Source of the DNA: a virus
DNA: 37,083 nt
IMG/VR virus record: IMGVR_UViG_3300030339_000134
Location: 1 to 37,083 of that record
Strand: one strand, 5' to 3'
Positions within the stretch are counted from its first letter, which is position 1. Each line of letters opens with the position of its first letter. Made by a program: the position numbers and the translations under genes. Shown here piece after piece: positions 1,311-36,210 of the stretch. The notes beneath the pieces are model-generated. The model was not told the origin of the DNA. It did no database searches and saw only the letters and a list, made by a program, of their open reading frames with translations.

Positions 1311-1379
1311 ATGATTCGTAATTTATATATAGAGATGTGTAACGAGATTAATGATGATAATCATAAATTGACTGAATAA
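1311..1379 (+). CDS. Leader peptide 1 (putative attenuator)
   Basis: This 22-residue ORF (MIRNLYIEMC then NEINDDNHKLTE) ends 25 bases before a strong terminator stem. Sixteen of its residues are Asn, Ile, Glu, Met, Asp, Tyr or Cys, the set decoded by the tRNA array that begins at 1717. The end of the ORF, TTGACTGA at 1368-1375, is perfectly complementary to TCAGTCAA at 1409-1416, which overlaps the 5' arm of the terminator. A ribosome at the stop codon would hide the first copy and let the terminator form; a ribosome stalled earlier would leave it free. This is the logic of trp-type attenuators. No function is proven. Confidence 0.6.
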   Translation: MIRNLYIEMCNEINDDNHKLTE

Positions 1380-1404
1380 TATTCTGGCATAATCGCCATA
1401 TAAA

Positions 1405-1438
1405 AAACTCAGTCAACAAAAAAGACTGAGTTTTTTTA
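1405..1438 (+). terminator. Rho-independent terminator of module 1
   Basis: AAACTCAGTC (1405-1414) pairs perfectly with GACTGAGTTT (1424-1433) and a T-run follows. TCAGTC in the 5' arm can pair instead with the end of the upstream leader ORF, so the stem looks conditional. Confidence 0.85.
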
Positions 1439-2448: not shown

Positions 2449-2535
2449 GTTGCGGTATGCAAAATAGGACAAAGCGACCAGACTTTCAATCTGGACTCCG
2501 TATGGGGTGTGCGGGTTCGAGCCCCGTCCGCAATA
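2449..2535 (+). tRNA. tRNA with TTC anticodon and long variable arm
   Basis: Acceptor GTTGCGG/CCGCAAT (G-U at the first pair), anticodon stem CCAGA/TCTGG with loop CTTTCAA, and T-arm GCGGG/CCCGT with loop TTCGAGC are clear. TTC would decode Glu, but the variable arm (CTCC-GTAT-GGGG) is of class II type, so charging identity is uncertain. Confidence 0.75.
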
Positions 2536-2547
2536 CTTTAAAAATAA

Positions 2548-2568
2548 AGTGATTAAATGATAATCACT
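2548..2568 (+). other. Hairpin upstream of tRNA-Glu
   Basis: AGTGATTA-AATGA-TAATCACT is a perfect 8-bp stem seven bases before tRNA-Glu. It parallels the hairpin at 2423. Confidence 0.6.
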
Positions 2569-2574
2569 ACAGAT

Positions 2575-2648
2575 GCTCGGTTCGTCTAGTTGGTCAGGAC
2601 GTCAGGTTTTCATCCTGGAGATCAGGGGTTCGAATCCCCTACCGAGTA
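2575..2648 (+). tRNA. tRNA-Glu (TTC)
   Basis: A standard cloverleaf: acceptor GCTCGGT/ACCGAGT, D-loop with GG, anticodon stem TCAGG/CCTGG with loop TTTTCAT, T-arm AGGGG/CCCCT with loop TTCGAAT. CCA is absent. Confidence 0.9.
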
Positions 2649-2655
2649 CAAAAAT

Positions 2656-2750
2656 GCCGATGTAACGAAACTGGTCTGTAAAACCAATCTGCTTATCAAA
2701 TTTTCGTATTGGACTCTAGCAGTAAGTAGGTTCGAATCCTACCAGCGGCA
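2656..2750 (+). tRNA. tRNA-Tyr-like (GTA) with displaced D-arm
   Basis: Acceptor GCCGATG/CAGCGGC (one mismatch) and T-arm GTAGG/CCTAC with TTCGAAT are clear. The anticodon stem-loop GGT-CTGTAAA-ACC follows only about seven bases after position 9, leaving no room for a D-arm. About 40 bases then separate it from the T-arm; they contain CTGC/GCAG and a D-loop-like CGTATTGG. An alternative fold pairs CCAAT with ATTGG around a 19-base loop. Confidence 0.6.
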
Positions 2751-2836
2751 CAAAAAAATGAAATTGAAGAAAACTTACAGCAAATTAAAAACAATTTGAC
2801 TTTCATTCAAACCAAAATGTTTTCTGTTTTCATAAT

Positions 2837-2920
2837 GGTCTCGGGGTCTGCTTGGTGTGGACGCCTGCCTGTCACGCAGGAACCGAAAGGATCAGGAGGG
2901 TTCGAATCCCTTCGGGACCG
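2837..2920 (+). tRNA. tRNA-Asp (GTC) with extra variable hairpin
   Basis: Acceptor GGTCTCG/CGGGACC, anticodon stem CCTGC/GCAGG with loop CTGTCAC, and T-arm GAGGG/CCCTT. The discriminator G suits Asp. The variable region carries an inserted ACC-GAAA-GGA mini-hairpin, unusual for a class I tRNA. Confidence 0.85.
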
Positions 2921-2930
2921 CAAAAAAATT

Positions 2931-3018
2931 GGGTTGGTTGCTTTAGTTGGTCGACAAGTCAAGACTGTTAATCTTGTGAACGTAAGTTCCACCGTGGGTT
3001 CGAATCCCACCCTTCCCT
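2931..3018 (+). tRNA. tRNA-Asn (GTT) with extra variable hairpin
   Basis: Anticodon stem CAAGA/TCTTG with loop CTGTTAA and T-arm GTGGG/CCCAC with TTCGAAT. The variable region holds a perfect hairpin GAAC-GTAA-GTTC. The acceptor GGGTTGG/CCTTCCC has two central mismatches. Confidence 0.75.
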
Positions 3019-3022
3019 CAAT

Positions 3023-3094
3023 GGTTTTGTAGTTTAGATGTATGAATACCTCCAAGTCATGGGGTGGTTGTTGGTTCAAATCCAACCAGGACCG
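3023..3094 (+). tRNA. tRNA-like, probable GTC anticodon
   Basis: Acceptor GGTTTTG/CAGGACC and T-arm GTTGG/CCAAC with TTCAAAT are good, and the discriminator is G as in the Asp genes. The anticodon loop reads AAGTCAT, which gives GTC but puts A at position 33 where U is near-universal. An 8-base loop is also possible, so decoding is uncertain. Confidence 0.6.
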
Positions 3095-3096
3095 CA

Positions 3097-3150
3097 ATGT
3101 TTTTATAGTTTAATTGTCAGGTTAAACCTGACTACAATGATACAAAACAT
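3097..3150 (+). other. 54-base tRNA-like element without a T-arm
   Basis: ATGTTTT (3097-3103) pairs perfectly with AAAACAT (3144-3150) like an acceptor stem. Inside, GTCAG-GTTAAAC-CTGAC makes a 5-bp stem with a 7-base loop centred on TAA. There is no T-arm and no D-stem. It resembles minimal mitochondrial tRNAs or may simply be a processing hairpin. Confidence 0.35.
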
Positions 3151-3175
3151 AAGTTATTTGAAATATTTAAGAAAT

Positions 3176-3249
3176 AGTGCTGTAGTTCAATTGGTTAGAG
3201 TACCTGGTTGTCAACCAGGAAGTTGCGGGTTCGAGTCCCGTCAGCACTG
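3176..3249 (+). tRNA. tRNA-Asp (GTC)
   Basis: A textbook cloverleaf: acceptor AGTGCTG/CAGCACT, anticodon stem CCTGG/CCAGG with loop TTGTCAA, 5-base variable loop, T-arm GCGGG/CCCGT, discriminator G. Confidence 0.92.
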
Positions 3250-3252
3250 CAT

Positions 3253-3332
3253 GGAATTATTGAGCAATCGGTTGCTTAGCAGACTGTAAATCTGTGGCTT
3301 CGGCATTGGGGGTTCGAATCCCTCTAATTCCA
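3253..3332 (+). tRNA. tRNA-Tyr (GTA)
   Basis: Acceptor GGAATTA/TAATTCC is perfect, the anticodon loop is CTGTAAA, and the long variable arm is normal for bacterial Tyr. The T-loop is TTCGAAT. Confidence 0.92.
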
Positions 3333-3341
3333 CAAAGAATT

Positions 3342-3414
3342 AGTCTATAGGTCAAACGGTTAAGATGTCGCCCTGTCACGGCGCACGGAGCGGGTTCAAC
3401 TCCCGTATAGACTG
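3342..3414 (+). tRNA. tRNA-Asp (GTC)
   Basis: Acceptor AGTCTAT/ATAGACT, anticodon stem CGCC/GGCG with loop CTGTCAC, T-arm GCGGG/CCCGT with loop TTCAACT, discriminator G. Another copy of the Asp isoacceptor in the array. Confidence 0.9.
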
Positions 3415-3421
3415 CAAAAAT

Positions 3422-3503
3422 GTTAGTGTGCCCGAGTGGTTGAAGGGGTCGGCTTGCAAACCCGATAAAAACAAACGCATGTGTTCGAATCACATCACTA
3501 ACT
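3422..3503 (+). tRNA. tRNA-Cys (GCA)
   Basis: Acceptor GTTAGTG/CACTAAC is perfect and the T-arm is ATGTG/CACAT. The anticodon loop TTGCAAA sits in a TCGG/CCGA stem. The variable region is about 13 bases, longer than normal for Cys, with no clear hairpin. Confidence 0.85.
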
Positions 3504-3511
3504 CAAAAAAT

Positions 3512-3593
3512 GACGCTGTGGTTGAATTGGTTTAGGCATCAGTCTGCAAAACTGAGGAGAAATCTAATGTGGGTTCGAGTCCCACCAGCGTTT
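3512..3593 (+). tRNA. tRNA-Cys (GCA) with extended variable loop
   Basis: Acceptor GACGCTG/CAGCGTT, anticodon stem CAGT/ACTG with loop CTGCAAA, T-arm GTGGG/CCCAC. The variable region can form a short GGA-GAAA-TCT hairpin. Confidence 0.87.
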
Positions 3594-3602
3594 CAAATAA
3601 AT

Positions 3603-3676
3603 AGGCGTATCATCTAAATTGGTAAGGATACATCTCTGATAAGGATGCAATTTCGGTTCAAGACCGAGTATGCCTA
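3603..3676 (+). tRNA. tRNA-Ile (GAT)
   Basis: Acceptor AGGCGTA/TATGCCT, anticodon stem CATCT/GGATG with loop CTGATAA, T-arm TTCGG/CCGAG, discriminator A. Confidence 0.9.
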
Positions 3677-3686
3677 CAAAATATTT

Positions 3687-3771
3687 ACCGCAGTGATCAG
3701 AGCGGCTATTGAAGAAGTTTCATAAGCTTTTGTTCGTAAGAACATCGTGGGTTCGAGTCCCACTTGCGGTA
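3687..3771 (+). tRNA. tRNA with CAT anticodon and variable hairpin
   Basis: Acceptor ACCGCAG/TTGCGGT is paired at 1-72, unlike the other CAT genes, which suggests elongator Met or lysidine-type Ile. The anticodon stem GAAGT/GCTTT has loop TTCATAA. The variable region holds a perfect GTTC-GTAA-GAAC hairpin. Confidence 0.75.
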
Positions 3772-3845
3772 CTAAGGAGACTGTTTAAAATTTCATAGAA
3801 CTGATATCCATATAAATGGTGTTCAGGAATCATAGAAAGGAACCA

Positions 3846-3919
3846 GGGTGTATAGCTCAACTGGTTAGAGCACCTGACTGATATTCAGGAGGTTGTAGAT
3901 TCGAGTTCTACTATACCCA
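3846..3919 (+). tRNA. tRNA-Ile (GAT)
   Basis: A standard cloverleaf with acceptor GGGTGTA/TATACCC, D-arm GCTC/GAGC, anticodon stem CCTGA/TCAGG with loop CTGATAT, and T-arm GTAGA/TCTAC. The 70 bases before it hold no gene I can define. Confidence 0.92.
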
Positions 3920-3930
3920 CAACAAGAAAT

Positions 3931-4004
3931 GGTCTGTTATGTCAATTGGTGAGACGGCAAAGCTTATATCTTTGAGGTTAGGGGTTCAAGTCCCTTACAG
4001 ACTA
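3931..4004 (+). tRNA. tRNA-Ile (TAT)
   Basis: Acceptor GGTCTGT/ACAGACT, anticodon stem CAAAG/CTTTG with loop CTTATAT, T-arm AGGGG/CCCTT. A TAT anticodon would read the AUA codon directly, rare in bacteria, which normally use a lysidine-modified CAT anticodon. Confidence 0.85.
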
Positions 4005-4009
4005 CTTAT

Positions 4010-4090
4010 ACTGGTGTACCGTTGGAAGCTTATACCTTCTATACACGTAGCGGGAAGTTGAAAACATAGGTTCGAATCCTATCATCAGTA
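4010..4090 (+). tRNA. tRNA-Ile-like (TAT), D-arm displaced
   Basis: Acceptor ACTGGTG/CATCAGT and T-arm ATAGG/CCTAT are clear. The anticodon arm GGAAG-CTTATAC-CTTCT starts about five bases after position 9, so no D-arm fits. About 25 bases with CGTAGCGGGAAGTTGA then precede the T-arm. Confidence 0.65.
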
Positions 4091-4103
4091 CAAAAATTAA
4101 TAT

Positions 4104-4183
4104 TGTGCCATACACAGCCGATTCTGATAAAATCGAGAACTGTAACGGAGTTGAAAATGTGGGTTCGAGTCTCACTGGCACAA
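4104..4183 (+). tRNA. tRNA-Ile-like (GAT), D-arm displaced
   Basis: Acceptor TGTGCCA/TGGCACA is perfect, as are the anticodon arm CGATT-CTGATAA-AATCG and the T-stem GTGGG/CTCAC. Only about six bases replace the D-arm. A 23-base segment with TGTAACGGAGTTGA lies between the anticodon arm and the T-arm. Confidence 0.65.
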
Positions 4184-4189
4184 CAAATT

Positions 4190-4277
4190 GCTCATGTTGC
4201 TTTAGTTGGTCGAAAAGTTCAGGCTGTTAACCTGATGAGAGTATTCTCCGCCGTAGGTTCGAATCCTACCGTGAGCG
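4190..4277 (+). tRNA. tRNA-Asn (GTT) with variable hairpin
   Basis: Acceptor GCTCATG/CGTGAGC, anticodon stem CAGG/CCTG with loop CTGTTAA, T-arm GTAGG/CCTAC, discriminator G. The variable region holds a GAGA-GTAT-TCTC hairpin like that of the Asn gene at 2931. Confidence 0.85.
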
Positions 4278-4298
4278 CAAATTTCAATTGTTATTTAT

Positions 4299-4370
4299 GG
4301 ATTCGTAGCTTAATGGTGAAGCAAAAAGCTGTTAACTTTGAGATTGCAGGTTCGAGTCCTATCGGAACCG
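4299..4370 (+). tRNA. tRNA-Asn (GTT)
   Basis: Anticodon stem AAAG/CTTT with loop CTGTTAA, D-arm GCTT/AAGC, T-loop TTCGAGT, discriminator G. Acceptor and T-stem each have one mismatch, so it is slightly degenerate. Confidence 0.8.
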
Positions 4371-4383
4371 CATTTTTTATAAA

Positions 4384-4442: not shown

Positions 4443-4997
4443 ATGTCAGAAAATAAAAATTTAAAAAATAAAGTTATTTCATTAAGAAATGAAGGTTTTA
4501 AAATGACTGAAATTGTAGTTAAATTAAATTGTAGTTTATCAACAGTAAAATATCATTGTAGTAAAAATGGATTAGCAGGTAAATCAAAAATATCAGAAGA
4601 TAATTTTGATATTATGAAAAAAATGATAAACGATGGTGTAACTCAAAAAGAAATTTCAGAAAAATTAAAAATATCAATTTCCACAATTAAAAGATATAAA
4701 GATAAATCTTTTGAAGAATTAAATAAATATAGAGGTTATATGCTTTCCTTTATGAAAGATAGAAGAAAAGATATAAAGAAACAAGCTGTTGAATATATGG
4801 GTGGTAGTTGTAAATTGTGTGGATATAATAAATGTTTTACAGCTTTATCTTTTCATCATATTGATCCTGAAACAAAAGATTTTCAAATATCTGGTACAAA
4901 TAGATGTTGGGAAAAAATAAAAAAAGAGTTAGATAAATGTGTTATGTTGTGTACTAATTGTCATTTAGAAGTACATGATGGAATAACAAAAATATAA
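4443..4997 (+). CDS. HNH homing-type endonuclease
   Basis: This 184-residue protein has two helix-turn-helix-like modules (EIVVKLNCSLSTVKYH at 24-39 and EISEKLKISISTIKRY at 70-85) followed by a C-terminal HNH domain with paired cysteines (CKLCG, CTNC), the core SFHHIDP and the final HLEVHDG. It would bind DNA through the N-terminal part and cut with the HNH part. It sits inside the tRNA array between tRNA-Asn and an interrupted tRNA-like gene that starts four bases after its stop, typical of a selfish endonuclease lodged among tRNA genes. Its low GC matches the phage. Confidence 0.88.
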   Translation: MSENKNLKNKVISLRNEGFKMTEIVVKLNCSLSTVKYHCSKNGLAGKSKISEDNFDIMKKMINDGVTQKEISEKLKISISTIKRYKDKSFEELNKYRGYMLSFMKDRRKDIKKQAVEYMGGSCKLCGYNKCFTALSFHHIDPETKDFQISGTNRCWEKIKKELDKCVMLCTNCHLEVHDGITKI

Positions 4998-5000
4998 AAT

Positions 5001-5129
5001 GGTGATGTTAGTCGTAAAGTCAGTAGATAAACTCGGATGACGGTGGTTGATAATTGTGAAAGTCAATTACTAGGAATAACGGCAACTGCAACTTAATTCA
5101 CATTGTAGGTTCGAGTCCTACCATCACCG
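5001..5129 (+). tRNA. Interrupted tRNA-like gene, anticodon unclear
   Basis: GGTGATG/CATCACC is a perfect acceptor stem and GTAGG-TTCGAGT-CCTAC a perfect T-arm, with discriminator G. The centre is nearly 100 bases instead of about 45 and no single anticodon arm is convincing; candidate stems are TAATTG/CAATTA around a 7-base loop and GTGAA/TTCAC. It is probably a tRNA with an insertion. Confidence 0.5.
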
Positions 5130-5298
5130 CAGGGGGAAGCTGTATTCTTGACATAGTTGAATTGACAACGGTAAGTAGAGGTTGAATGTCAGATTTGTCC
5201 CAAAAAAGGAAGATCACAACCTCATCCTACACTTGGTAATAAATAAGAGTAACCAAATTACTGATAAAGCTATAACGGTAAAGAAACTCTTAAAAAAT
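5130..5298 (+). other. Structured non-coding spacer
   Basis: Nested pairings such as GAGGTTG/CAACCTC, TGACAT/ATGTCA and AAGAGT/ACTCTT suggest a folded RNA ending just before the tRNA at 5299. I compared it with tmRNA and group I introns and found no diagnostic element. It could be a tRNA-processing element or a decayed tRNA. Confidence 0.35.
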
Positions 5299-5419
5299 GG
5301 GGAAGTAGCTCAGTTGGTAGAGCAGCGGATGCAAAAAATGTAATTTGTAAAAATTATAAACAGCACAAAAAAACGCAACCTGGAACCGTGTGTCGGACAT
5401 TCGAATCGTCCCTTCCCCA
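5299..5419 (+). tRNA. tRNA-Pro (TGG) candidate with 50-base insertion
   Basis: Acceptor GGGGAAG/CTTCCCC, D-arm GCTC-AGTTGGTA-GAGC and T-loop TTCGAAT are clear. Removing 5331-5380 leaves an anticodon arm GCGG-ATTGGAA-CCGT with U33 and anticodon TGG, plus a normal 5-base variable loop. The insertion is AT-rich and contains a hairpin of GTAATTT with AAATTAT. It is too short for a normal group I or II intron. Confidence 0.55.
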
Positions 5420-5484
5420 CAATTTAATGAAGTAGTGATTCATTATAGAGAAATAAAAAGAAAACTTACAGCGATATAAAAATC

Positions 5485-5904: not shown

Positions 5905-6915
5905 ATGCCAAGCATTAAAGATACTGATTATTATAAATCTGGTAAATTGTTAGAAAATTCAAAAAAAGCAAATATTAAATCAACAGAAGTTTTAATCAAG
6001 TTAAAAAAAGAAAGAATTGAAGATTATAATAATAATCCAAAATTATGTAAAGAGTGCCAATGTGCTTTATCTTATGAAAAAAGAAATAATAAGTTTTGTT
6101 CAAGTTCTTGTTCAGCATCATTTAATAATAAAAAAAGAAGTTTAACGGAAGAAACTAAAAATAAAATTTCAAAATCATTAAAAAAAGGAGAAATTGTACA
6201 AAAAAAATGTTTATATTGCGAAAAAGAATTTGAAATAGAATGGAGTTTAAGACATCAAAAATTTTGTAGTAAAAGTTGTGCATCAAAAAATAGGGCTAAA
6301 ACTCCTATTAAAATAAAAAAGACTGAACATCCAAGAGTAATTGAAAAAGTTTGTGAACGCTGTCAAAAGAAATATATTGTGAATTGGTGGTCTAAAGATA
6401 TACAAAAATATTGTGGTCTTAGTTGTTCGTCTAAGCGTCCAAAAACAGCAGGAACAAAAGAAAAATTATCAAAAAATGTATCTGAAAAAATTAAAAACGG
6501 TACATTTAAACCACAATTAACAAGTATAAAATGTTTTTATAAATTTAATGATAAAGAAATTCGATGTGATTCTAAAGTTGAGTATAGTTGTTTGAATTAT
6601 TTTGAAAACAAGTTTGAGGTTTTAGATATTGAAAGATGTGATTTTTTAATTGATTTTAATTATAATGGAATTAATAAAAAATATAATCCAGATTTTAAAA
6701 TAACTACCATTAATGATGTATATATTGTTGAATGTAAAACAATCTTATCATCAAAAGAACTTGTTAGAAAATGGTCATATTATTATGATACAATAGAATA
6801 TAAAAAGATAGTATTAGATAAGTATTGTAAAGAAAACAATTTTTTATCTTTCAACTACAATAAAGATATGAATAGTGTGTTTTATAAAAATTGTAAACCA
6901 CAATTAATTGGTTAA
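5905..6915 (+). CDS. Zinc-finger PD-(D/E)XK-like homing endonuclease
   Basis: This 336-residue protein has three cysteine clusters of the form CxxC then FCS/YCG xxC (CKECQC..FCSSSC near 48-70, CLYCEK..FCSKSC near 102-125, CERCQK..YCGLSC near 150-173), apparent zinc modules for DNA binding. The C-terminal third has SKVEYSC, YNPDF and VECKT in the order E...PD...ExK, the active-site pattern of PD-(D/E)XK nucleases. Location in a tRNA array next to an HNH gene, plus the shared upstream hairpin, supports a homing-type mobile gene. Nuclease activity is inferred from motif order. Confidence 0.7.
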   Translation: MPSIKDTDYYKSGKLLENSKKANIKSTEVLIKLKKERIEDYNNNPKLCKECQCALSYEKRNNKFCSSSCSASFNNKKRSLTEETKNKISKSLKKGEIVQKKCLYCEKEFEIEWSLRHQKFCSKSCASKNRAKTPIKIKKTEHPRVIEKVCERCQKKYIVNWWSKDIQKYCGLSCSSKRPKTAGTKEKLSKNVSEKIKNGTFKPQLTSIKCFYKFNDKEIRCDSKVEYSCLNYFENKFEVLDIERCDFLIDFNYNGINKKYNPDFKITTINDVYIVECKTILSSKELVRKWSYYYDTIEYKKIVLDKYCKENNFLSFNYNKDMNSVFYKNCKPQLIG

Positions 6916-11695: not shown

Positions 11696-11875
11696 TTTAT
11701 TGTAGTGCAATTGGATAGCATCGGAGGCAACTGAAAAATAATTTTTGTTTAGGATTAATTAACCTATGATGAATTTATACAGACCTATGGTTTCAAAAGA
11801 TACGGAGTAATTGCCAAAAAATATGAAATTGACGTGATTAACACGTAGATTTAGGTTCGAGTCCTAACGATAAAA
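11696..11875 (+). tRNA. Interrupted tRNA-like gene, possibly Phe (GAA)
   Basis: Acceptor TTTATTG/CGATAAA is perfect, with D-arm GTGC-AATTGGATA-GCAT and T-arm TTAGG-TTCGAGT-CCTAA. A candidate anticodon arm is GGCAA-CTGAAAA, but its partner TTGCC lies at 11811-11815, after a 73-base insertion. A further 35 bases with a CGTG/CACG hairpin precede the T-arm. Identity is uncertain. Confidence 0.5.
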
Positions 11876-11892
11876 CTAAAAATATTAATAAA

Positions 11893-12196: not shown

Positions 12197-12250
12197 ATGA
12201 AAAACTTATTTAACACAGTTCAGCAACAACAACAGATGAATTCCGTCTGA
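12197..12250 (+). CDS. Gln leader peptide (putative attenuator)
   Basis: A 17-residue ORF, MKNLFNTVQQQQQMNSV, with five consecutive Gln codons (12221-12235: CAG CAA CAA CAA CAG). Its end, CGTCTGA (12244-12250, containing the stop), pairs perfectly with TCAGACG (12283-12289), and the adjacent TTGGGT pairs with AACTCAA, the 5' arm of the terminator. The antiterminator of about 13 bp and the terminator exclude each other. The first genes downstream are tRNA-Gln (TTG), tRNA-Gln (TTG) and tRNA-Gln (CTG). This fits charging-dependent attenuation: stalling at Gln codons leaves the antiterminator free. A TTTATATATA promoter-like sequence lies 16 bases upstream. Confidence 0.75.
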   Translation: MKNLFNTVQQQQQMNSV

Positions 12251-12274
12251 TTGGGTGAACTATGTTCTTTTCTT

Positions 12275-12303
12275 AACTCAAGTCAGACGATTTGGGTTTT
12301 TTT
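12275..12303 (+). terminator. Terminator of the Gln attenuator
   Basis: AACTCAA (12275-12281) pairs with TTTGGGTT (12291-12298), one G-U, and a T-run follows. The loop contains TCAGACG, which pairs with the leader stop region in the alternative fold. Confidence 0.75.
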
Positions 12304-12315
12304 ATTTTAAAAAAT

Positions 12316-12386
12316 TGCTCTGTAACATAATGTAGTGTGACACCCCTTGAAGGTGTTCGGTGTTGGTTCAAGTCCAACCAGAGTAA
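12316..12386 (+). tRNA. tRNA-Gln (TTG)
   Basis: Acceptor TGCTCTG/CAGAGTA, anticodon stem ACACC/GGTGT with loop CCTTGAA, T-arm GTTGG/CCAAC with TTCAAGT. C at position 33 is unusual. It is the first gene after the Gln attenuator. Confidence 0.83.
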
Positions 12387-12402
12387 CAAAAATATTAAAT
12401 AT

Positions 12403-12474
12403 TGCCTTGTTATGTAATGGCTAGCATACAACACTTTGAATGTTGGAGTCATGGTTCGAATCCATGCAAGGCAA
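12403..12474 (+). tRNA. tRNA-Gln (TTG)
   Basis: Acceptor TGCCTTG/CAAGGCA is perfect; anticodon stem CAACA/TGTTG with loop CTTTGAA; T-loop TTCGAAT. A normal cloverleaf. A truncated D-arm-like fragment (12503-12530, GCCCCATAGTGTAGTGG) follows and may be a broken tRNA. Confidence 0.9.
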
Positions 12475-12539
12475 CAAATAACAACAAGTTATTTTAAATT
12501 TATTGCCCCATAGTGTAGTGGTGGGGCTTCAAAAAATAT

Positions 12540-12610
12540 TGCTCAGTAGCATAATGTTGTGCATCTGCCTCTGAAGCAGCAGGCTGAAGGTTCAAGTCCT
12601 TCCTGAGCAA
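12540..12610 (+). tRNA. tRNA-Gln (CTG)
   Basis: Acceptor TGCTCAG/CTGAGCA is perfect; anticodon stem CTGC/GCAG with loop CTCTGAA; T-arm GAAGG/CCTTC. It reads CAG, so the three genes cover both Gln codons used in the leader peptide. Confidence 0.9.
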
Positions 12611-12652
12611 CAATAATTTAAACTCCAATCTTTATTTTTTATATAAAAGGTT

Positions 12653-13638: not shown

Positions 13639-14532
13639 TTATTTTTTATGTTTGTCTGGTTCAACATGAATAGACACTATAGCATATTCATCATATTTAA
13701 TAATTCTTTTTTCAAGATTATCTGAAATATTGTGTGCTTCGATTAAACATAGTGTAGGAACAACGTGAATTGTTGCTTCAACAAAGAGTAAATGCCCAGA
13801 GTTTCTAACTCTTAAATCGTGATAATTAATTACATCTGGAAAATTTATAATAATTTCTTTAATATCTTCGGATTCTTTAATTGGTGCTTTGTCTAAAAGA
13901 GCATCAATTGCTTTTTTGCCAAGTGACCAGCAAATATGTATGACAATAATAGCTACTACAAGAGCTGCTACTGAGTCGGCATAAAAAAAGATTGGTAGGT
14001 GTGTCCATTCATATATTTTGACAAAAATTAAGCCTAAGAGTACAACAGAAGAACTCCAAATATCAGTTGAGAAATGAAGTGCATCAGCTTCTAGTGCCTG
14101 ACTTTTGTATTTTTTTGCAATTATCATTAATTTTTTTGATCTCCAAGCATCAATTAAGATGGATGTTGAAACTACAATAAAACTAAATATAGTTTCTGTT
14201 GTGCTTAATGTTAATCCTTTACCTGATGCAATTCGGTGTGCAGCTTCATATATGATCCAAAAACAAGTGATAAACAACAATAGTGTTTCAATTAAAGCTG
14301 AAAAATTTTCAATTTTACCGTGTCCATAATGATGATCTTCATCTGATGGTTTATTTGATACTTTAACTGCAAATAATGTAATAACAGCGGCAACAAGATC
14401 CAATCCAGAGTGGAGTGCTTCTGATAATATCCCTAAACTACCTGTAATTAAACCAATAACAAGTTTAAAACAAGTTAAAAATATTGCAGATAATACACTT
14501 ACAAATGCAACTTTATTTTTTTCTTTTTCCAT
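13639..14532 (-). CDS. Cation diffusion facilitator transporter
   Basis: A 297-residue inner-membrane CDF protein that would export divalent metal ions (Zn2+, Fe2+, Mn2+ or Co2+) in exchange for protons. It has about six membrane segments, the family start GSLGILSEALHSGLDLVAAV with its conserved H and D, the loop HHYGHGKIENFSAL, and the second site ALEADALHFSTDIWSSS (HxxxD). The C-terminal cytoplasmic domain (residues 215-293) has the ferredoxin-like pattern with HDLRVRNSGHLLFVEATIHV and VSIHVEP. The length is normal for the family. Such a full transporter is unusual in a phage. A perfect Bacteroidota promoter lies 20 bases upstream. Confidence 0.93.
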   Translation of the reverse strand: MEKEKNKVAFVSVLSAIFLTCFKLVIGLITGSLGILSEALHSGLDLVAAVITLFAVKVSNKPSDEDHHYGHGKIENFSALIETLLLFITCFWIIYEAAHRIASGKGLTLSTTETIFSFIVVSTSILIDAWRSKKLMIIAKKYKSQALEADALHFSTDIWSSSVVLLGLIFVKIYEWTHLPIFFYADSVAALVVAIIVIHICWSLGKKAIDALLDKAPIKESEDIKEIIINFPDVINYHDLRVRNSGHLLFVEATIHVVPTLCLIEAHNISDNLEKRIIKYDEYAIVSIHVEPDKHKK

Positions 14533-16522: not shown

Positions 16523-17509
16523 TTAAGAATTTAACATTGCTGTTTTTATTTTATCAACTAATTCAATATGCTCCATTCCGAATTTTGTCCAGGCAATACC
16601 CATTTCTTTCAAATCGTATTTATGAACTATTGTACTGTATAATTTAGAACGTTCTTCAGTTATTTTATTAATATTAGAGTCATTAGTACTTCTTAATGAT
16701 TTTTTTGTTTTTTTATTTGTAGAAGGATCATTTATTAAATCGTTATTTTTTAATATCAAGTCATTTAATTCAGATACTTTAGTTTCTATTTCTTTCTGTA
16801 AATCTTCTGGATAACCAATAACATAAACAACATCTGCTAATTCAACCGCTAACCTAATATCGTGAGTTGAGAAGATAATTGTATTAAGCTCGTCACTTGA
16901 TAAAATAATATTAAATGCATCTTTTACACTTTCAATATTTCCTACATCTAATCCTGAAAATGGTTCGTCAAATACCATAAAATGCTTTGATGTAAGTAAT
17001 TGCTCAATAACAGCAGTTCTTTGACGTTGCCCTCCTGATAATTCACAAGGATATTTATCTTTGTGCTGTGTCATACTCCACTTATCAAGTTGTTCTTCAA
17101 TTTTTTTGTTTTTTTCTTCAGGTGTTAATTTTGTATTTTTTAATGCATACATTAATATTTGATTAACTGTTTTATGACGAAATAAAGTATATTTTTGATC
17201 AACAAAGCCCACATCACCTTCACCAACTTCTTTTGCTGATTCTGGCTCACCTTCTTTAGAGTTAGTAATAAGTACTCGACCTGATAATGGTTTCATCAAA
17301 CCAGTTAATACTTTGAATAATGTTGATTTTCCTCTGCCGGATCTGCCAACAACTGCGATTGTTTGACCAGTAATAAACCCAGGACGAACAACATCTTTTT
17401 CAATCATATTTATTCCTTTAAGGATTGGTTTAGGATTTTTTGTACCATCATCATACCCAGCAGATATTTCATCTAAGCATAAAATAGTTTGTTTTAATTC
17501 GTAATTCAT
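16523..17509 (-). CDS. ABC transporter ATP-binding protein
   Basis: A 328-residue ATPase with Walker A GRSGRGKST (near 55-63), Q-loop GFVDQKYTLF, signature LSGGQRQR, Walker B FMVFDEPFSG and H-loop STHDIR, all intact. It resembles the SsuB/TauB/NrtD type that powers import of organic anions. It is about 80 residues longer than typical members; the extra C-terminal part (ELNDLILKNNDLINDPSTNK onward) is helical and unassigned. It lies four bases from the permease gene, so it is translated from the same operon. Confidence 0.93.
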   Translation of the reverse strand: MNYELKQTILCLDEISAGYDDGTKNPKPILKGINMIEKDVVRPGFITGQTIAVVGRSGRGKSTLFKVLTGLMKPLSGRVLITNSKEGEPESAKEVGEGDVGFVDQKYTLFRHKTVNQILMYALKNTKLTPEEKNKKIEEQLDKWSMTQHKDKYPCELSGGQRQRTAVIEQLLTSKHFMVFDEPFSGLDVGNIESVKDAFNIILSSDELNTIIFSTHDIRLAVELADVVYVIGYPEDLQKEIETKVSELNDLILKNNDLINDPSTNKKTKKSLRSTNDSNINKITEERSKLYSTIVHKYDLKEMGIAWTKFGMEHIELVDKIKTAMLNS

Positions 17510-32434: not shown

Positions 32435-32815
32435 ATGAAAAATTTTGAAGAATTTATGAGAATAAATGAACTTTTGGCAACTACCCCAGTTGATTTAAAA
32501 TATGTCGATAAAGATAATGGCGATAAAGAAATATTAAGATTAGCTATAATAGGTGAATTAGATGCAGTTAGTTTATATGAACAATTGTCAGAAACAGCAA
32601 AAAATGAAAAAGTGAAGAAAACTTTATTGGATATTGCAAAAGAAGAAAAAAGACATATTGGTGAACTTCAAACATTATTGAAAGAATTAGATCCAGAATA
32701 TAAAGAAGAACTTAAAAAAGGAAAAGAAGAAGTAAAATCTGCTGATTCTGATGAAGAAAAAGATGAAGAAAAAGAGGACAAAGATAAAGAGGATGATACT
32801 ATTCAAAAAAATTAA
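32435..32815 (+). CDS. Ferritin-like protein with capsid-targeting-like start
   Basis: About 126 residues from MKNFEEFMRINELLATTP; ATG at 32435 is chosen over an upstream TTG. Residues 29-85 form two helices typical of small ferritin-like or rubrerythrin-like proteins: EILRLAIIGELDAVSLYEQL and TLLDIAKEEKRHIGELQTLL, with E and ExxH metal ligands. A two-helix unit would need to dimerise, as in encapsulated ferritins. The C-terminus is a very acidic tail. The start resembles T4 internal-head-protein leaders, so packaging into the capsid is a testable idea. Confidence 0.75.
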   Translation: MKNFEEFMRINELLATTPVDLKYVDKDNGDKEILRLAIIGELDAVSLYEQLSETAKNEKVKKTLLDIAKEEKRHIGELQTLLKELDPEYKEELKKGKEEVKSADSDEEKDEEKEDKDKEDDTIQKN

Positions 32816-32816
32816 A

Positions 32817-32846
32817 TCAAAAAAGCCACCTTTCGGTGGCTTTTTC
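32817..32846 (+). terminator. Strong Rho-independent terminator
   Basis: AAAAGCCACC-TTTC-GGTGGCTTTTT, the most GC-rich stem in the window, right after the ferritin-like gene. It closes the cassette operon. Confidence 0.92.
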
Positions 32847-33151
32847 TTTACCTATCTATTCTAACAGCCAAGATAGACTTTTGAATCTTGGATTGGTTTG
32901 CAAAATTTAGGAGGTGCATGTTAGTCTTTTATTCCATCTATTTACTTCATTATCTATTTAATCTATTTTTTGCTTTTTTGGCTTTCCAGTATATATTATA
33001 TTAATTAATTTTTTACCTGGGCGGACCATTACATTTTTCCATTTTTTTTTATCTATATGTTAATAATTTATATATCTATCTATTAATTATCTATTATGTT
33101 ATTTATTTACCATTTCGGCGGACTATTACAATTTTTCATTTTTATATATTT
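32847..33151. other. Non-coding region with direct repeats
   Basis: About 300 bases without a convincing gene. Two similar blocks, 33012-33046 and 33106-33143, share the order TTTACC, GGCGGAC, ATTACA, TTTTTC, ATTTTT. Between and before them the sequence is rich in TCTATCTATT-type runs. It may be a regulatory or replication region, or the remains of a lost gene. Confidence 0.45.
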
Positions 33152-33319
33152 TTAATCGTTTTCAACATATTCAACAATTTTACCGTCACAGTCAACTAAA
33201 AATAGTTGTTCTTCTACGCCAGCTAATGCTACGTATTTTTCCAAAATATCTGAGAATACAAATTCTTTGATCCAATCGAACTTTTCAAGTTCTGGAGATA
33301 AATTTTTTTCGTTTTTCAT
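33152..33319 (-). CDS. Small acidic protein
   Basis: A 55-residue ORF (MKNEKNLSPELEKFDWIKEF, then ALAGVEEQLFLVDCDGKIVE), with an AT-rich start but a coding-like interior that is richer in G and C. A perfect Bacteroidota promoter lies 26 bases upstream, which strongly supports expression. Its family is not recognised. Confidence 0.7.
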   Translation of the reverse strand: MKNEKNLSPELEKFDWIKEFVFSDILEKYVALAGVEEQLFLVDCDGKIVEYVEND

Positions 33320-33344
33320 GTTTTCTTGTTTTTTGATTACAATA

Positions 33345-33376
33345 CAAATGTACGGAACTTATTTGAGATTGCCAAA
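33345..33376 (-). promoter_or_regulatory. Complete Bacteroidota promoter
   Basis: Minus-strand TTTG (33376-33373), 20 bases, TACATTTG (33352-33345). It is a TAnnTTTG variant other than TATCTTTG. Confidence 0.7.
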
Positions 33377-33405
33377 TATTTAGGTTTAATTTTAAATAAA
33401 ACTTT

Positions 33406-34086
33406 CTATCTGACATCTAACATATTTTTATATTTTTCAATATAATTTACTTCACATATAAAATGATTATTTTGATTATCGTATGACCAATCACATCCAT
33501 TAATGATATTTCCATTAACATTTAAATAAATTGGATTTGTATCAAATGTTTCTGTGGTTAATGTAGTTGCATAACTTATAATTTCTGCATTTTTATAATT
33601 TTCTAATGCACGTCCTTCTTTATGAAGTTTTTTGCCATTTTCAAAATTTTCATTATCTTTATTTCTTTTACTATAAAATGGTAATTTTGCTAAAAGTGTA
33701 TCATTATACATTTTTTGCTTGATATGATAATGATCATTTGAGATTTGAACACCACTGCTTTTTTTTATAATACAATAATTATATAATTCTGTACAAATAT
33801 TAATAAAATTTTCTGTTAAATTCACACCATTTGTTGCAATATAAAAAGTATTGATTTGAATATTTCTTTTTTTACAACCATCTAAAAAATATTTTATTGC
33901 TGGAACATTTAATGATGGCTCACCACCTGTTGGACAAAAATGACCAATAGAACTAACTTGATTTAATAATGAATCAATATACTCAAATGAAATATCTTTG
34001 CTTTGACTCTCACCTCTTAAACAATGACTACATTGAATATTACATTTTCTTGTGACTTCTATTGCAAGATGTTTAATTTCAATCAT
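33406..34086 (-). CDS. Radical SAM protein
   Basis: A 226-residue protein with the radical SAM cluster motif CNIQCSHC (CxxxCxxC, residues 15-22), the GGEP motif (CPTGGEPSLN) and TNGVNLT, so it should bind a 4Fe-4S cluster and cleave S-adenosylmethionine. It is shorter than most members and shows no full SPASM domain; the C-terminal NVNGNIINGCDW holds a single Cys. The substrate is unknown; peptide or tRNA modification are options. It stands alone between two differently regulated genes. Confidence 0.88.
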   Translation of the reverse strand: MIEIKHLAIEVTRKCNIQCSHCLRGESQSKDISFEYIDSLLNQVSSIGHFCPTGGEPSLNVPAIKYFLDGCKKRNIQINTFYIATNGVNLTENFINICTELYNYCIIKKSSGVQISNDHYHIKQKMYNDTLLAKLPFYSKRNKDNENFENGKKLHKEGRALENYKNAEIISYATTLTTETFDTNPIYLNVNGNIINGCDWSYDNQNNHFICEVNYIEKYKNMLDVR

Positions 34087-34179
34087 TTTTCATTAAAATT
34101 TGTAAATTTACCAATAGCCAAAAAGTCTGACATTCACAATTCGTGATTATCAGAATTTTTTATTTGTATTGTGCTTGAA

Positions 34180-34779
34180 TTAACGAGTTTCTTTCAACAT
34201 TAGAACTGGAGCAATATCAGAGATAAGTCCTTCAACATCTCCATTTCCACAAGTGAACGCCTCATTGATAGCATCAGTTTTGATACTGTATGTTACTTTT
34301 TGAACAAAGAGTGCTTCTTTTTCTTCTTCAGTCATAAAATCAGCACTCATGATCAATTCTTCGAGTTTATCTGAATATTTGTTTAACAGATCGTTATTCA
34401 TAATCATTTCTGATTTTTCATCAACAAATGACTCCCCATATTTTTCACGTAGTTCTGTTGCTCTTTCTTCATCAACACTTCCGGTGTATTTTTTTACAAC
34501 CATGAACATGATTTTGTCACCTTTTTCACTTTCAACCTTAATTGATTCAGGATTTCTTTTCATACCAAGATATAATTTCTTGTATTCATCAAGGCAAATG
34601 CCTTTGATGTCGCCTTCAATTGATTTCTGCTCAGCTGTTTTGTCTTTGATTTCTTCCTTTAATGTATTGAATTTTTTCAATTTATCAGCAAAATCTTCGC
34701 CTTTAACAACTGCAACAGGTTTTAAATCTTTTTTTGCGGCTGGTGCTTTTACTGCTACCACTTTTTTACCTAATGCCAT
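34180..34779 (-). CDS. Hypothetical protein with Lys/Ala-rich start
   Basis: A 199-residue soluble protein. The first 25 residues (MALGKKVVAVKAPAAKKDLK) are a basic, flexible tail; residues 27-60 are a coiled coil (EDFADKLKKFNTLKEEIKDK). The rest is mixed, with GDKIMFMVVKKYTGSVDEER. Codon use is richer in G and C than in the small genes nearby, which fits a well-expressed core phage gene. The function is not recognised; nucleic acid binding is possible. Confidence 0.7.
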   Translation of the reverse strand: MALGKKVVAVKAPAAKKDLKPVAVVKGEDFADKLKKFNTLKEEIKDKTAEQKSIEGDIKGICLDEYKKLYLGMKRNPESIKVESEKGDKIMFMVVKKYTGSVDEERATELREKYGESFVDEKSEMIMNNDLLNKYSDKLEELIMSADFMTEEEKEALFVQKVTYSIKTDAINEAFTCGNGDVEGLISDIAPVLMLKETR

Positions 34780-34867
34780 AATTTTATATTTTAAATGTTA
34801 TTTATTTCTACAATTACAATAATAATGATATTTTTTCAATAAAAAAACTTTTTTGATGTTTTTTTAT

Positions 34868-34969
34868 TTAAAATTCGGCGTTAGGTTGAATATTCAAATG
34901 TTCAGCACCAAATCCAGTTAAAAACATTTCATTAAATTGTTCATCCTCAATTGTCATTTTTGCTTCCAT
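34868..34969 (-). CDS. Very small acidic protein
   Basis: A 33-residue ORF, MEAKMTIEDEQFNEMFLTGF then GAEHLNIQPNAEF. It is short, but a perfect Bacteroidota promoter lies 39 bases upstream, and the next start in the same direction is beyond its stop. It may be a small regulator. Confidence 0.5.
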   Translation of the reverse strand: MEAKMTIEDEQFNEMFLTGFGAEHLNIQPNAEF

Positions 34970-35008
34970 TTTTGTGATTTTAAGTGTGTTTCTATTATTT
35001 CAACAGTA

Positions 35009-35040
35009 CAAAGATACGAAATTTATTTAAAATATCCAAA
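35009..35040 (-). promoter_or_regulatory. Complete Bacteroidota promoter
   Basis: Minus-strand TTTG (35040-35037), 20 bases, TATCTTTG (35016-35009), before the small gene at 34868. Confidence 0.8.
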
Positions 35041-35042
35041 TA

Positions 35043-35549
35043 TTAACTGAATAATTTATTCCAAAATGATTTTTTTTCGTAAAATTGATATTTTCCAATT
35101 TTTTTATTATAAATAACTAATTTAATTTCTATTAATTGTATAATAAGTTTAGGAAATTCAAAATCATATTTAACCTCAGGTTCATCTATAACATCATAAC
35201 AATACATATAAAATGGTTCTTGTTTTGTAGACCAATAAATATCTGGACTATCATTAATAATTACCATTTTTTCACCAACTTTAGGACGATTTATTGTGTG
35301 AGAATATCCAGAATGATTTGAAAGCCAATATAAATCTAATATGTTATTATGTAAAACTTTACCGTTCCAATGTTTATATTTAACCCAACCATCATGTATA
35401 TGCCAAGCAGTAAAACCTAATGGGTTAATAAATTCATTAAATAGATTTCTTGAAATTTCTTGTTCTTGATGTAAACTTTTTGAAGATTCCATAAATGCTG
35501 TTGCACCAGAGCCTTTTACTACTATTCCATTTTCTAATTGATATTCCAT
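35043..35549 (-). CDS. Hypothetical protein
   Basis: A 168-residue protein with many aromatic residues and His (FTAWHIHDGWVKYKHWNGKV, LYWLSNHSGYSHTINRPKVG) and a beta-rich C-terminal half ending KKSFWNKLFS. The central WHIHDGW and NHSGYSH clusters could bind metal. No family is recognised. A perfect Bacteroidota promoter lies 41 bases upstream. Confidence 0.7.
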   Translation of the reverse strand: MEYQLENGIVVKGSGATAFMESSKSLHQEQEISRNLFNEFINPLGFTAWHIHDGWVKYKHWNGKVLHNNILDLYWLSNHSGYSHTINRPKVGEKMVIINDSPDIYWSTKQEPFYMYCYDVIDEPEVKYDFEFPKLIIQLIEIKLVIYNKKIGKYQFYEKKSFWNKLFS

Positions 35550-35589
35550 ACTCTTTGTGATTTTAAGTGTTTCTATCGTTTCAATAACA

Positions 35590-35621
35590 CAAAGATAATT
35601 ATTAGTTTATACACTACCAAA
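35590..35621 (-). promoter_or_regulatory. Complete Bacteroidota promoter
   Basis: Minus-strand TTTG (35621-35618), 20 bases, then TATCTTTG-type TAnnTTTG (35597-35590). Confidence 0.8.
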
Positions 35622-35625
35622 CTTT

Positions 35626-36210
35626 TTATGCTAATTTTTTATCTCTTATCAAATTTCTTAAAAATATATTTTTTTCTCCACCTAATAATTCTATCCATTC
35701 TTTATATTCTGATATTTTTGAAAAATTTTGAAATTTTAACCATGCCTTATAATTGTTTACAAGTGATTCTCTACCACTTTTTGCATTAATTAAATCATCT
35801 TCTGAAGAATAGTCTTCTTCAACAATTTCTGGAAAATATTTTTCTACCACAAAATCTGTAAAATCAGGATATAATTCTTTGTTAAATACTCTTTCATCAC
35901 AAAGAAAGCAGACTGAAGTTAATGAATCGTTTAGATCAGGTTCTTCAAAATATGCAATTTTGATATCGTTTTCAAGTAATTGATCAGCAATTTGATTTAA
36001 TGTTCCTGTTGATTTAGAAGTAAAGTCTCTTTTACTATTAGTTGTTCCACCATTTAAAACAATCCAGGTTTTCCAATTTTCTACAAAGTCAATATACTCT
36101 GTATCGTCTTTATATTTGTTAGCATACTGTTCAACAGCATGACCACATTGAATACCTTGCTGAATACCAGTTAGTTGATAAGGTACAAAAAAATACATTC
36201 TTTTTTCCAT
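35626..36210 (-). CDS. Peptidyl-tRNA-hydrolase-2-like protein
   Basis: A 194-residue protein whose first 110 residues follow the PTH2 plan: MYFFVPYQLTGIQQGIQCGH then AVEQYAN, a Trp-containing helix and strand (FVENWKTWIVLNGG), a middle helix (LNQIADQLLENDIKIAYFEE) and TSVCFLCDERVF. The QCxHA motif corresponds to the PTH2 helix 1 signature. PTH2 releases peptides from stalled peptidyl-tRNA; the usual DxGxTQ motif is altered to EEPDLNDSLT, so activity is uncertain. The C-terminal 80 residues are extra. It forms an operon with two paralogous genes. Confidence 0.65.
   Translation of the reverse strand: MEKRMYFFVPYQLTGIQQGIQCGHAVEQYANKYKDDTEYIDFVENWKTWIVLNGGTTNSKRDFTSKSTGTLNQIADQLLENDIKIAYFEEPDLNDSLTSVCFLCDERVFNKELYPDFTDFVVEKYFPEIVEEDYSSEDDLINAKSGRESLVNNYKAWLKFQNFSKISEYKEWIELLGGEKNIFLRNLIRDKKLA

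Follow-up and report, generated by a model that had tools for sequence, protein, structure and literature searches.

Why should the tRNA genes of a virus be preceded, time and again, by a short open reading frame (ORF) and a terminator? This question is raised by a linear virus record of 37,083 bases, which was analysed over its whole length and is referred to below as the window. It contains three leader-ORF/terminator modules upstream of tRNA genes: M1 (1311-1436) and M2 (2205-2349), arranged in tandem ahead of a Met/Glu/Asp/Asn/Tyr/Cys/Ile array, and M3 (12197-12298), ahead of a Gln array. The window has promoter elements of the Bacteroidetes, TATCTTTG type; among named DNA sequences, those that match it most closely are tRNA segments from huge phages of 634-735 kb, themselves uncultured. 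The reason for the presence of tRNA genes in phages is a decades-old matter of debate. We propose, with high confidence for a reading that rests on sequence comparison and predicted folding, that the modules are ribosome-mediated transcription attenuators sensing shortage of the tRNAs encoded behind them.

The M1 leader ORF, MIRNLYIEMCNEINDDNHKLTE (1311-1379; features of the window are on the plus strand unless stated otherwise), runs from ATG to TAA with 22 sense codons, the length claimed for it in a preliminary description, and has orthologs in L012, L016, L019 and L023. A candidate Bacteroidetes-type -7 promoter element, TATCTTTG (1183-1190, by consensus match only), lies 128 nt 5' of this leader; the same element is found at -144 in the ortholog L012 (background, 0.18 per 200 nt), and a scan for sigma-70 promoters gave no excess over shuffles. 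Region 2 of M1, TTGACTGA (1368-1375), is located within the last leader codons and forms the 5' strand of the predicted antiterminator. Its partner, region 3 (TCAGTCAA, 1409-1416), can pair either with region 2 or with the 3' arm of the terminator. These two stretches are, as claimed, perfectly complementary over 8 bases, and region 3 occupies part of the 5' arm of the terminator and the bases that adjoin it. The terminator itself is also present, but its hairpin, which had been placed at 1405-1433, is slightly longer (1402-1436, with 13 pairs and then a T tract); the hairpin is followed by TATTTTAT. As had likewise been noticed, 16 of the 22 leader residues belong to one amino-acid set, {C,D,E,I,M,N,Y}. 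Within codons 2-16 (1314-1358), which constitute the M1 control window, the proportion is 13 of 15, and at least 13 such residues occur in just 15 of the 28,745 open 15-codon stretches of the AT-rich window. Directly 3' of the terminator, an 87-aa ORF (1443-1706) opens the unit that M1 would control; it has a relative in L129 and no match in Pfam, and the relatives sought by means of this ORF amounted to a single locus. It is followed by the nearest tRNA gene, with anticodon CAT (1717-1789), and by two tRNA-like genes with the same anticodon, called with relaxed ARAGORN settings (1803-1888 and 1978-2061).

The leader ORF of M2, MKYNMNICESYRNINININDDENIVFLDW (2205-2294; orthologs in L012, L016, L129/L020 and L023), contains region 2, GGACTGG, at 2285-2291, and the intrinsic terminator at 2317-2349 holds region 3, CCAGTCC, at 2322-2328. 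The array behind it (2449-4371) has, according to ARAGORN, on which our tRNA calls rest, the isotype order Glu, Glu, Asp, Asn, Asp, Tyr, Asp, Cys, Cys, Ile, Met, Ile, Ile(tat), Asn, Asn; three more tRNAs are found at the Rfam threshold. It counts against our reading that the tRNAs nearest to M1 are all CAT; what the M1 leader fits is the tRNA set of the larger array that follows M2. M3 is simpler. Its leader, MKNLFNTVQQQQQMNSV (12197-12250), encodes QQQQQ at codons 9-13 (12221-12235), of which codon 13 is the critical codon, that is, the last one at which region 2 is left free, and three tRNA-Gln genes (TTG, TTG and CTG) follow at 12316-12611. Region 2 (GTCTGATT, 12245-12252) overlaps the leader stop codon, and the terminator (12275-12298) holds region 3 (AGTCAGAC) at 12281-12288.

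When the leader ends were shuffled by mononucleotides, complementarity equal to or better than that observed was obtained in 25 of 5000 shuffles for M1, 158 of 5000 for M2 and 40 of 5000 for M3. The complementarity of each module alone is thus only modestly unlikely, and the case was therefore tested by comparison across phages; it is this comparative evidence, rather than the complementarity of any single module, that makes the case compelling.

We scanned huge phages for a terminator with an upstream short ORF whose end is complementary to it, a procedure that is blind to leader composition. For two genomes, LR756502 and LR745206, overlapping pieces of 20 kb gave essentially complete coverage. 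Their 265 terminators include 23 that belong to modules. Of these modules, 10 are followed by tRNAs and 9 by aminoacyl-tRNA synthetase genes, which places 19 of the 23 ahead of tRNA or synthetase genes, mostly cognate ones (Val, Ile, Leu, Asn, Asp, Gln and Trp). An equal frequency of such modules before other genes, which the preliminary description had named as the result that would speak against a tRNA-associated family, is not what we found: 10 of 17 tRNA-proximal terminators carry a module, compared with 13 of 248 others. Since 9 of these 13 precede synthetase genes, just 4 of the 239 remaining terminators carry one (Fisher p = 4e-8 for tRNAs, and 1e-19 for tRNAs and synthetases together). 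The postulated family of leader-terminator modules before phage tRNA arrays holds, and it reaches far beyond the window, into huge phages, IMG/VR contigs and cultured phages. Two features go beyond what had been described: the codons of a leader correspond to the particular tRNAs encoded downstream, and the same switch is found at synthetase genes.

The match can be seen by reading the leaders. In LR756502, a QQQQQQQ leader is followed by four tRNA-Gln genes and then GlnRS. Among other huge phage leaders, an F/H/K/W leader precedes Phe, His and Lys tRNAs and then TrpRS, an SSS/RS leader Arg and Ser tRNAs, a YESYYEE leader Glu and Tyr tRNAs, and a PQPQDQD leader Pro and Asp tRNAs. Further, a Leu-rich leader is followed by five tRNA-Leu genes, and LSLCLSLSLSL by Leu, Leu, Ser, Cys and Ser tRNAs. 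Modules without tRNAs follow the same rule: VVV precedes ValRS, IIII IleRS, LLL LeuRS and NNRNR AsnRS, and a D-containing leader precedes AspRS in two phages. The match is weak for an HTYK leader, with one His codon, ahead of an N-terminal fragment of HisRS. An FNFFF leader (MNTNTTFNFFFSHKMV, LR745206.1 614928-614957, minus strand) is located in front of a PheS-related ligase (L075:6218-7297, minus strand) that belongs to the NCBIfam family SrmL, named mystery ligase. Because the leader is rich in Phe, its position suggests that Phe is the substrate of this enzyme.

Searching in reverse, from the synthetases, we found modules frequently in LR745206 and LR756502, and none at many of the synthetases of LR756501 and LR756504. 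That modules are not universal among phage tRNA and synthetase genes counts against our reading. Three module calls, at LR745206 125658- and 214993- and at LR756502 577038-, look like chance matches. In LR745206.1, a Phe-rich leader, MKTFFCITFFTNFTK (587381-587421, plus strand), is followed by a gene that is neither a tRNA nor a synthetase gene, has no Pfam match and, by eye, resembles HTH/replication-initiator proteins. Behind the Val leader of the same genome, two consecutive class I synthetase-like ORFs (32639-35712, minus strand) may represent a ValRS unit that was duplicated or split.

The correspondence was evaluated by a permutation test in which leaders were swapped among modules, with one representative per leader cluster. 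The control window was defined as those codons at which a stalled ribosome, its edge 12 nt past the start of the A-site codon, leaves region 2 free. In the final run (102 modules in 39 clusters), the fraction of cognate codons in the control window was 0.472, compared with 0.260 after permutation (z 12.3; 0 of 200,000 permutations). This run used a broader rule for assigning leaders, still blind to composition; the leaders at L098, L099 and L079 were assigned by it without regard to tRNAs, and at L245 it probably took a wrong, longer ORF. For modules with at most six isotypes, the window gave 0.386 versus 0.145 (z 11.5) and the leader tail 0.190 versus 0.147 (z 1.95). An earlier, stricter run had given z 9.5 for the window and p 0.15 for the tail, and the first run (33 clusters) 0.399 versus 0.258 (0 of 200,000); in that run the seven synthetase leaders gave 0.244 versus 0.089 (16 of 50,400). 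The cognate enrichment thus lies in the control window, the codons after it showing little or none. It should be noted that leader clusters may share remote ancestry.

IMG/VR was surveyed with four DNA patterns (X..X'..X-TTT) that carry no information on ORFs or tRNAs. Among the pattern matches with tRNAs within 700 bases, a leader ORF was present in 79 of 79; no match to the four patterns before tRNAs lacked one. As a control, one of the four patterns was scanned over bacterial genomes, and none of the 107 assessed among the matches listed precedes tRNAs. Several groups of IMG/VR phages carry the module, for example MKTQFTYNCNQMPEQGNKGDYMDTDLG before Cys, Asn, Glu, Lys, Tyr and Gln; a blastn search for close named relatives of the IMG/VR arrays returned matches to tRNA genes only. 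A distinct type is seen in the IMG/VR contigs L200-L279, where the leaders, about 30-42 codons long and ahead of broad tRNA arrays, include almost every amino acid and resemble a general translation-capacity sensor. In the bacterial control, the matches listed are dominated by a leader type of Xanthomonadaceae contigs (L300-L398), which has a conserved leader, e.g., MKLTDFQHDTSAARMATGMTSRARRPEPHIFAG, and the same X..X'..X terminator design.

The module is also present in cultured phages. The Cellulophaga phages phi4:1 and phi38:1 each carry three. In phi4:1, MKIQRLHLQELEQPIISGGTGV is followed by Pro, Glu, Gln, His, Leu, Leu and Arg tRNAs, the GTG-start leader VQLTKTGITVIDKTKGARAYLGDTVIG, inside annotated gp075, by Ala, Lys, Ile, Gly, Met, Asp, Thr, Val, Arg and Met, and MKTNYCTYNNSNWSFSYDTGSVCTLGSDGLIG by Tyr, Ser, Asn, Trp and Phe. 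The tRNA array is thus partitioned among three modules, and 38 of the 46 residues in the control windows belong to the module's own set, compared with 16.2 after permutation (0 of 100,000; leaders and starts were assigned by hand for this test). phi38:1 has three matching equivalents, with terminators near 35411 and 36912 and directly ahead of tRNA-Pro at 38141; one of its leaders, MNVTLLHQEPLEQLRLPSRVPYYGIDELS, is followed by Pro, Glu, Gln, His, Leu and Arg, and a Lak phage has a leader containing MHPVCGMIHMFPCGGGR before His, Pro, Arg and Arg. The tRNA surroundings in the Erwinia, Salmonella T5-like, Aeromonas, PaBG, S-CREM1, Vibrio 2.275 and crAss001 records yielded no module.

In each module, the antiterminator and the terminator exclude one another since region 3 is common to both helices, and the predicted energies of the two structures are comparable: about -14.6 kcal/mol for the terminator and about -13.5 for the antiterminator domain in M1, -13.7 and -13.3 in M2, and -9.5 and -12.2 in M3. 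Equilibrium folds of the full-length RNA favour the terminator in most modules and are mostly indistinguishable between ribosome positions; hence the model needs a co-transcriptional order of folding, as in known attenuators, and full-length folding was replaced by co-transcriptional folding of transcripts ending before the 3' arm of the terminator. In these shortened transcripts, the antiterminator has a probability near 0.9 with the ribosome anywhere up to the critical codon, in most modules even at codon 2, and is blocked with the ribosome at the stop codon. A clear 1:2 protector hairpin was not found by the folding calculation in most modules, M3 and a few others having partial protection; an untranslated leader is therefore predicted to read through, unlike that of trp. 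The stem covariation that the preliminary description had proposed to look for is present but limited among close orthologs. The 7-bp core does not vary among the five M1 orthologs, position 1409 changes in a compensatory manner with both of its alternative partners, and L019 has one terminator pair changed from C-G to A-T, so that little weight can be placed on M1 covariation; the M2 and M3 ortholog alignments are too gapped for pair counts. Between unrelated modules, the arm sequences differ and the pairing is kept: what is conserved is the design, not the sequence.

We propose the following mechanism. RNA polymerase would transcribe a short leader ORF rich in codons for the tRNAs encoded downstream. 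When cognate charged tRNA is plentiful, the ribosome would reach the leader stop codon and cover region 2, upon which region 3 would pair with region 4, the intrinsic terminator would form and the tRNA or synthetase genes would remain untranscribed. Shortage of any cognate tRNA, or its lack of charging, would make the ribosome stall upstream, within the control window; region 2 would then pair with region 3, the terminator would be blocked and the genes would be transcribed. From the arrangement of the sequences we infer that the leader is translated, that ribosomes stall on it and which way regulation would run in vivo. The likely purpose would be feedback on tRNA supply, including replacement of host tRNAs lost to shut-down or anticodon nucleases, and we hypothesize that the modules have a role in counter-defence. 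A more far-reaching view, which we offer only tentatively, is that large phages possess private, codon-addressed sensors of the tRNA pool, individual attenuators that, in the course of infection, read the scarcity of defined sets of tRNAs and switch on replacement tRNAs and synthetases.

The most serious alternative accepts attenuation and takes the signal to be general failure of translation (host shut-off or loss of ribosomes) instead of specific tRNAs. It would fit the predicted read-through of untranslated leaders and of leaders with the ribosome still at codon 2, as well as those phages whose leaders hold nearly all amino acids before broad arrays. However, codon content follows the exact downstream isotypes, and does so in the control window only, neither of which a general sensor needs; we consider this alternative rather unlikely. 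Far less probable is that the short ORFs encode functional micropeptides and that the terminators just insulate the tRNA operons from upstream transcription. The M1 and M2 ortholog leaders do retain parts of their sequence, and gp075 of phi4:1 and gp066 and gp070 of phi38:1, annotated as hypothetical proteins, hold or overlap leaders, but the composition of the peptides varies with the tRNA or synthetase that follows, the leader end is complementary to a terminator arm, and a leader is present in all blind pattern matches before tRNAs. Direct, T-box-like sensing of uncharged tRNA by the RNA is suggested by the target genes, synthetases and tRNAs, which resemble those of T-boxes, and is nevertheless very hard to credit, given that an Rfam scan of the window at gathering thresholds gave tRNA matches only and that the regulatory information consists of in-frame codons positioned to suit the ribosome footprint. 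Chance can be practically dismissed, and is refuted at the level of the family, because the permutation across modules controls for composition and AT bias cannot explain poly-Gln, Leu/Ser, Phe/His or Val leaders, even if short ORFs rich in Asn, Ile and Asp, as well as T-rich hairpins, arise near tRNAs in AT-rich sequence, the amino-acid set of M1 and M2 is common in such DNA and the complementarity of each module has a p of only about 0.005-0.03.

The attenuators that we propose resemble known systems. The trp, his, leu, thr and ilv leaders are ribosome-mediated transcription attenuators of amino-acid biosynthesis operons, with which the phage modules have in common a leader ORF with cognate codons, mutually exclusive antiterminator and terminator structures, an intrinsic terminator, and downstream genes that relieve the shortage sensed. 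Located between promoter and terminator, the phage leaders, whose translation is predicted, contain cognate codons by the permutation tests, and these are positioned such that a stall frees the antiterminator strand. As the protector or pause hairpin of the trp type, which not every attenuator has, is mostly absent, the modules would work like the trp/his/pheST family without being strict trp-type members. They also differ from these leaders in that they are viral and control tRNA arrays and synthetases instead of biosynthesis, often sense several amino acids together, fitted to the array, and usually have region 2 in the last leader codons. The pheST attenuator of E. coli, with a Phe-rich leader ahead of PheRS, likewise places cognate codons before a synthetase gene; whereas it serves a single bacterial synthetase, one phage has modules for Val, Ile, Leu, Asn and Asp, probably also for His and the PheS-like ligase, plus tRNA operons. 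T-box riboswitches, which bind tRNA directly and need no translation of a leader, also control synthetase genes by tRNA charging, but the phage modules give no Rfam T-box match in the window scan.

As to the genes controlled, it has been described that phage-encoded, nuclease-insensitive tRNAs replace depleted host tRNAs (PMC10264068, eLife 2023), a replacement of tRNAs in common with our proposal; leaders and attenuation are unmentioned there, as they are in further papers on phage tRNAs. Huge phage genomes have been reported with up to 67 tRNAs and 15 synthetases each (PMC7162821, Nature 2020); the uncultured huge phages compared here resemble these, and the main text of that paper mentions neither leader peptides, attenuation nor terminators. 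Within the open-access literature, we found no description of phage tRNA or synthetase genes being controlled by leader-peptide attenuation; with this scope, novelty is probable rather than certain. The logic of the attenuator is known; the tRNA and synthetase targets, the viral carriers and the multi-isotype leaders are probably new.

If our view is correct, demand rather than fixed codon usage governs phage tRNA genes; in the more far-reaching view, the arrays would be inducible counter-measures to depletion of host tRNAs, for instance by anticodon nucleases, and not constitutive aids to codon usage. Each leader would then state which tRNAs the phage expects to lose, and leader-peptide attenuation would be extended to viruses and to tRNA genes. 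Leaders could also predict enzyme specificity, as with the Phe-rich leader ahead of the PheS-related ligase. Since phi38:1 and phi4:1 are cultured and bear modules, the idea is directly testable.

The window contains further genes of note. Three tRNA-like genes (5299-5420, 5036-5130 and 11696-11876) have, in the intron mode of ARAGORN, an anticodon loop interrupted by 50, 17 and 87 bases, respectively; the interruptions could be introns, insertions or signs of decayed genes. Within the tRNA array are two ORFs (4443-4997 and 5905-6915): one has a helix-turn-helix together with what by eye resembles a Cys/His motif of the HNH type, the other has repeated Cys pairs, and both look like genes of the homing-endonuclease type. 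The minus strand encodes cation-efflux-like, ABC-transporter-like and radical SAM proteins (13639-14532, 16523-17509 and 33406-34086).
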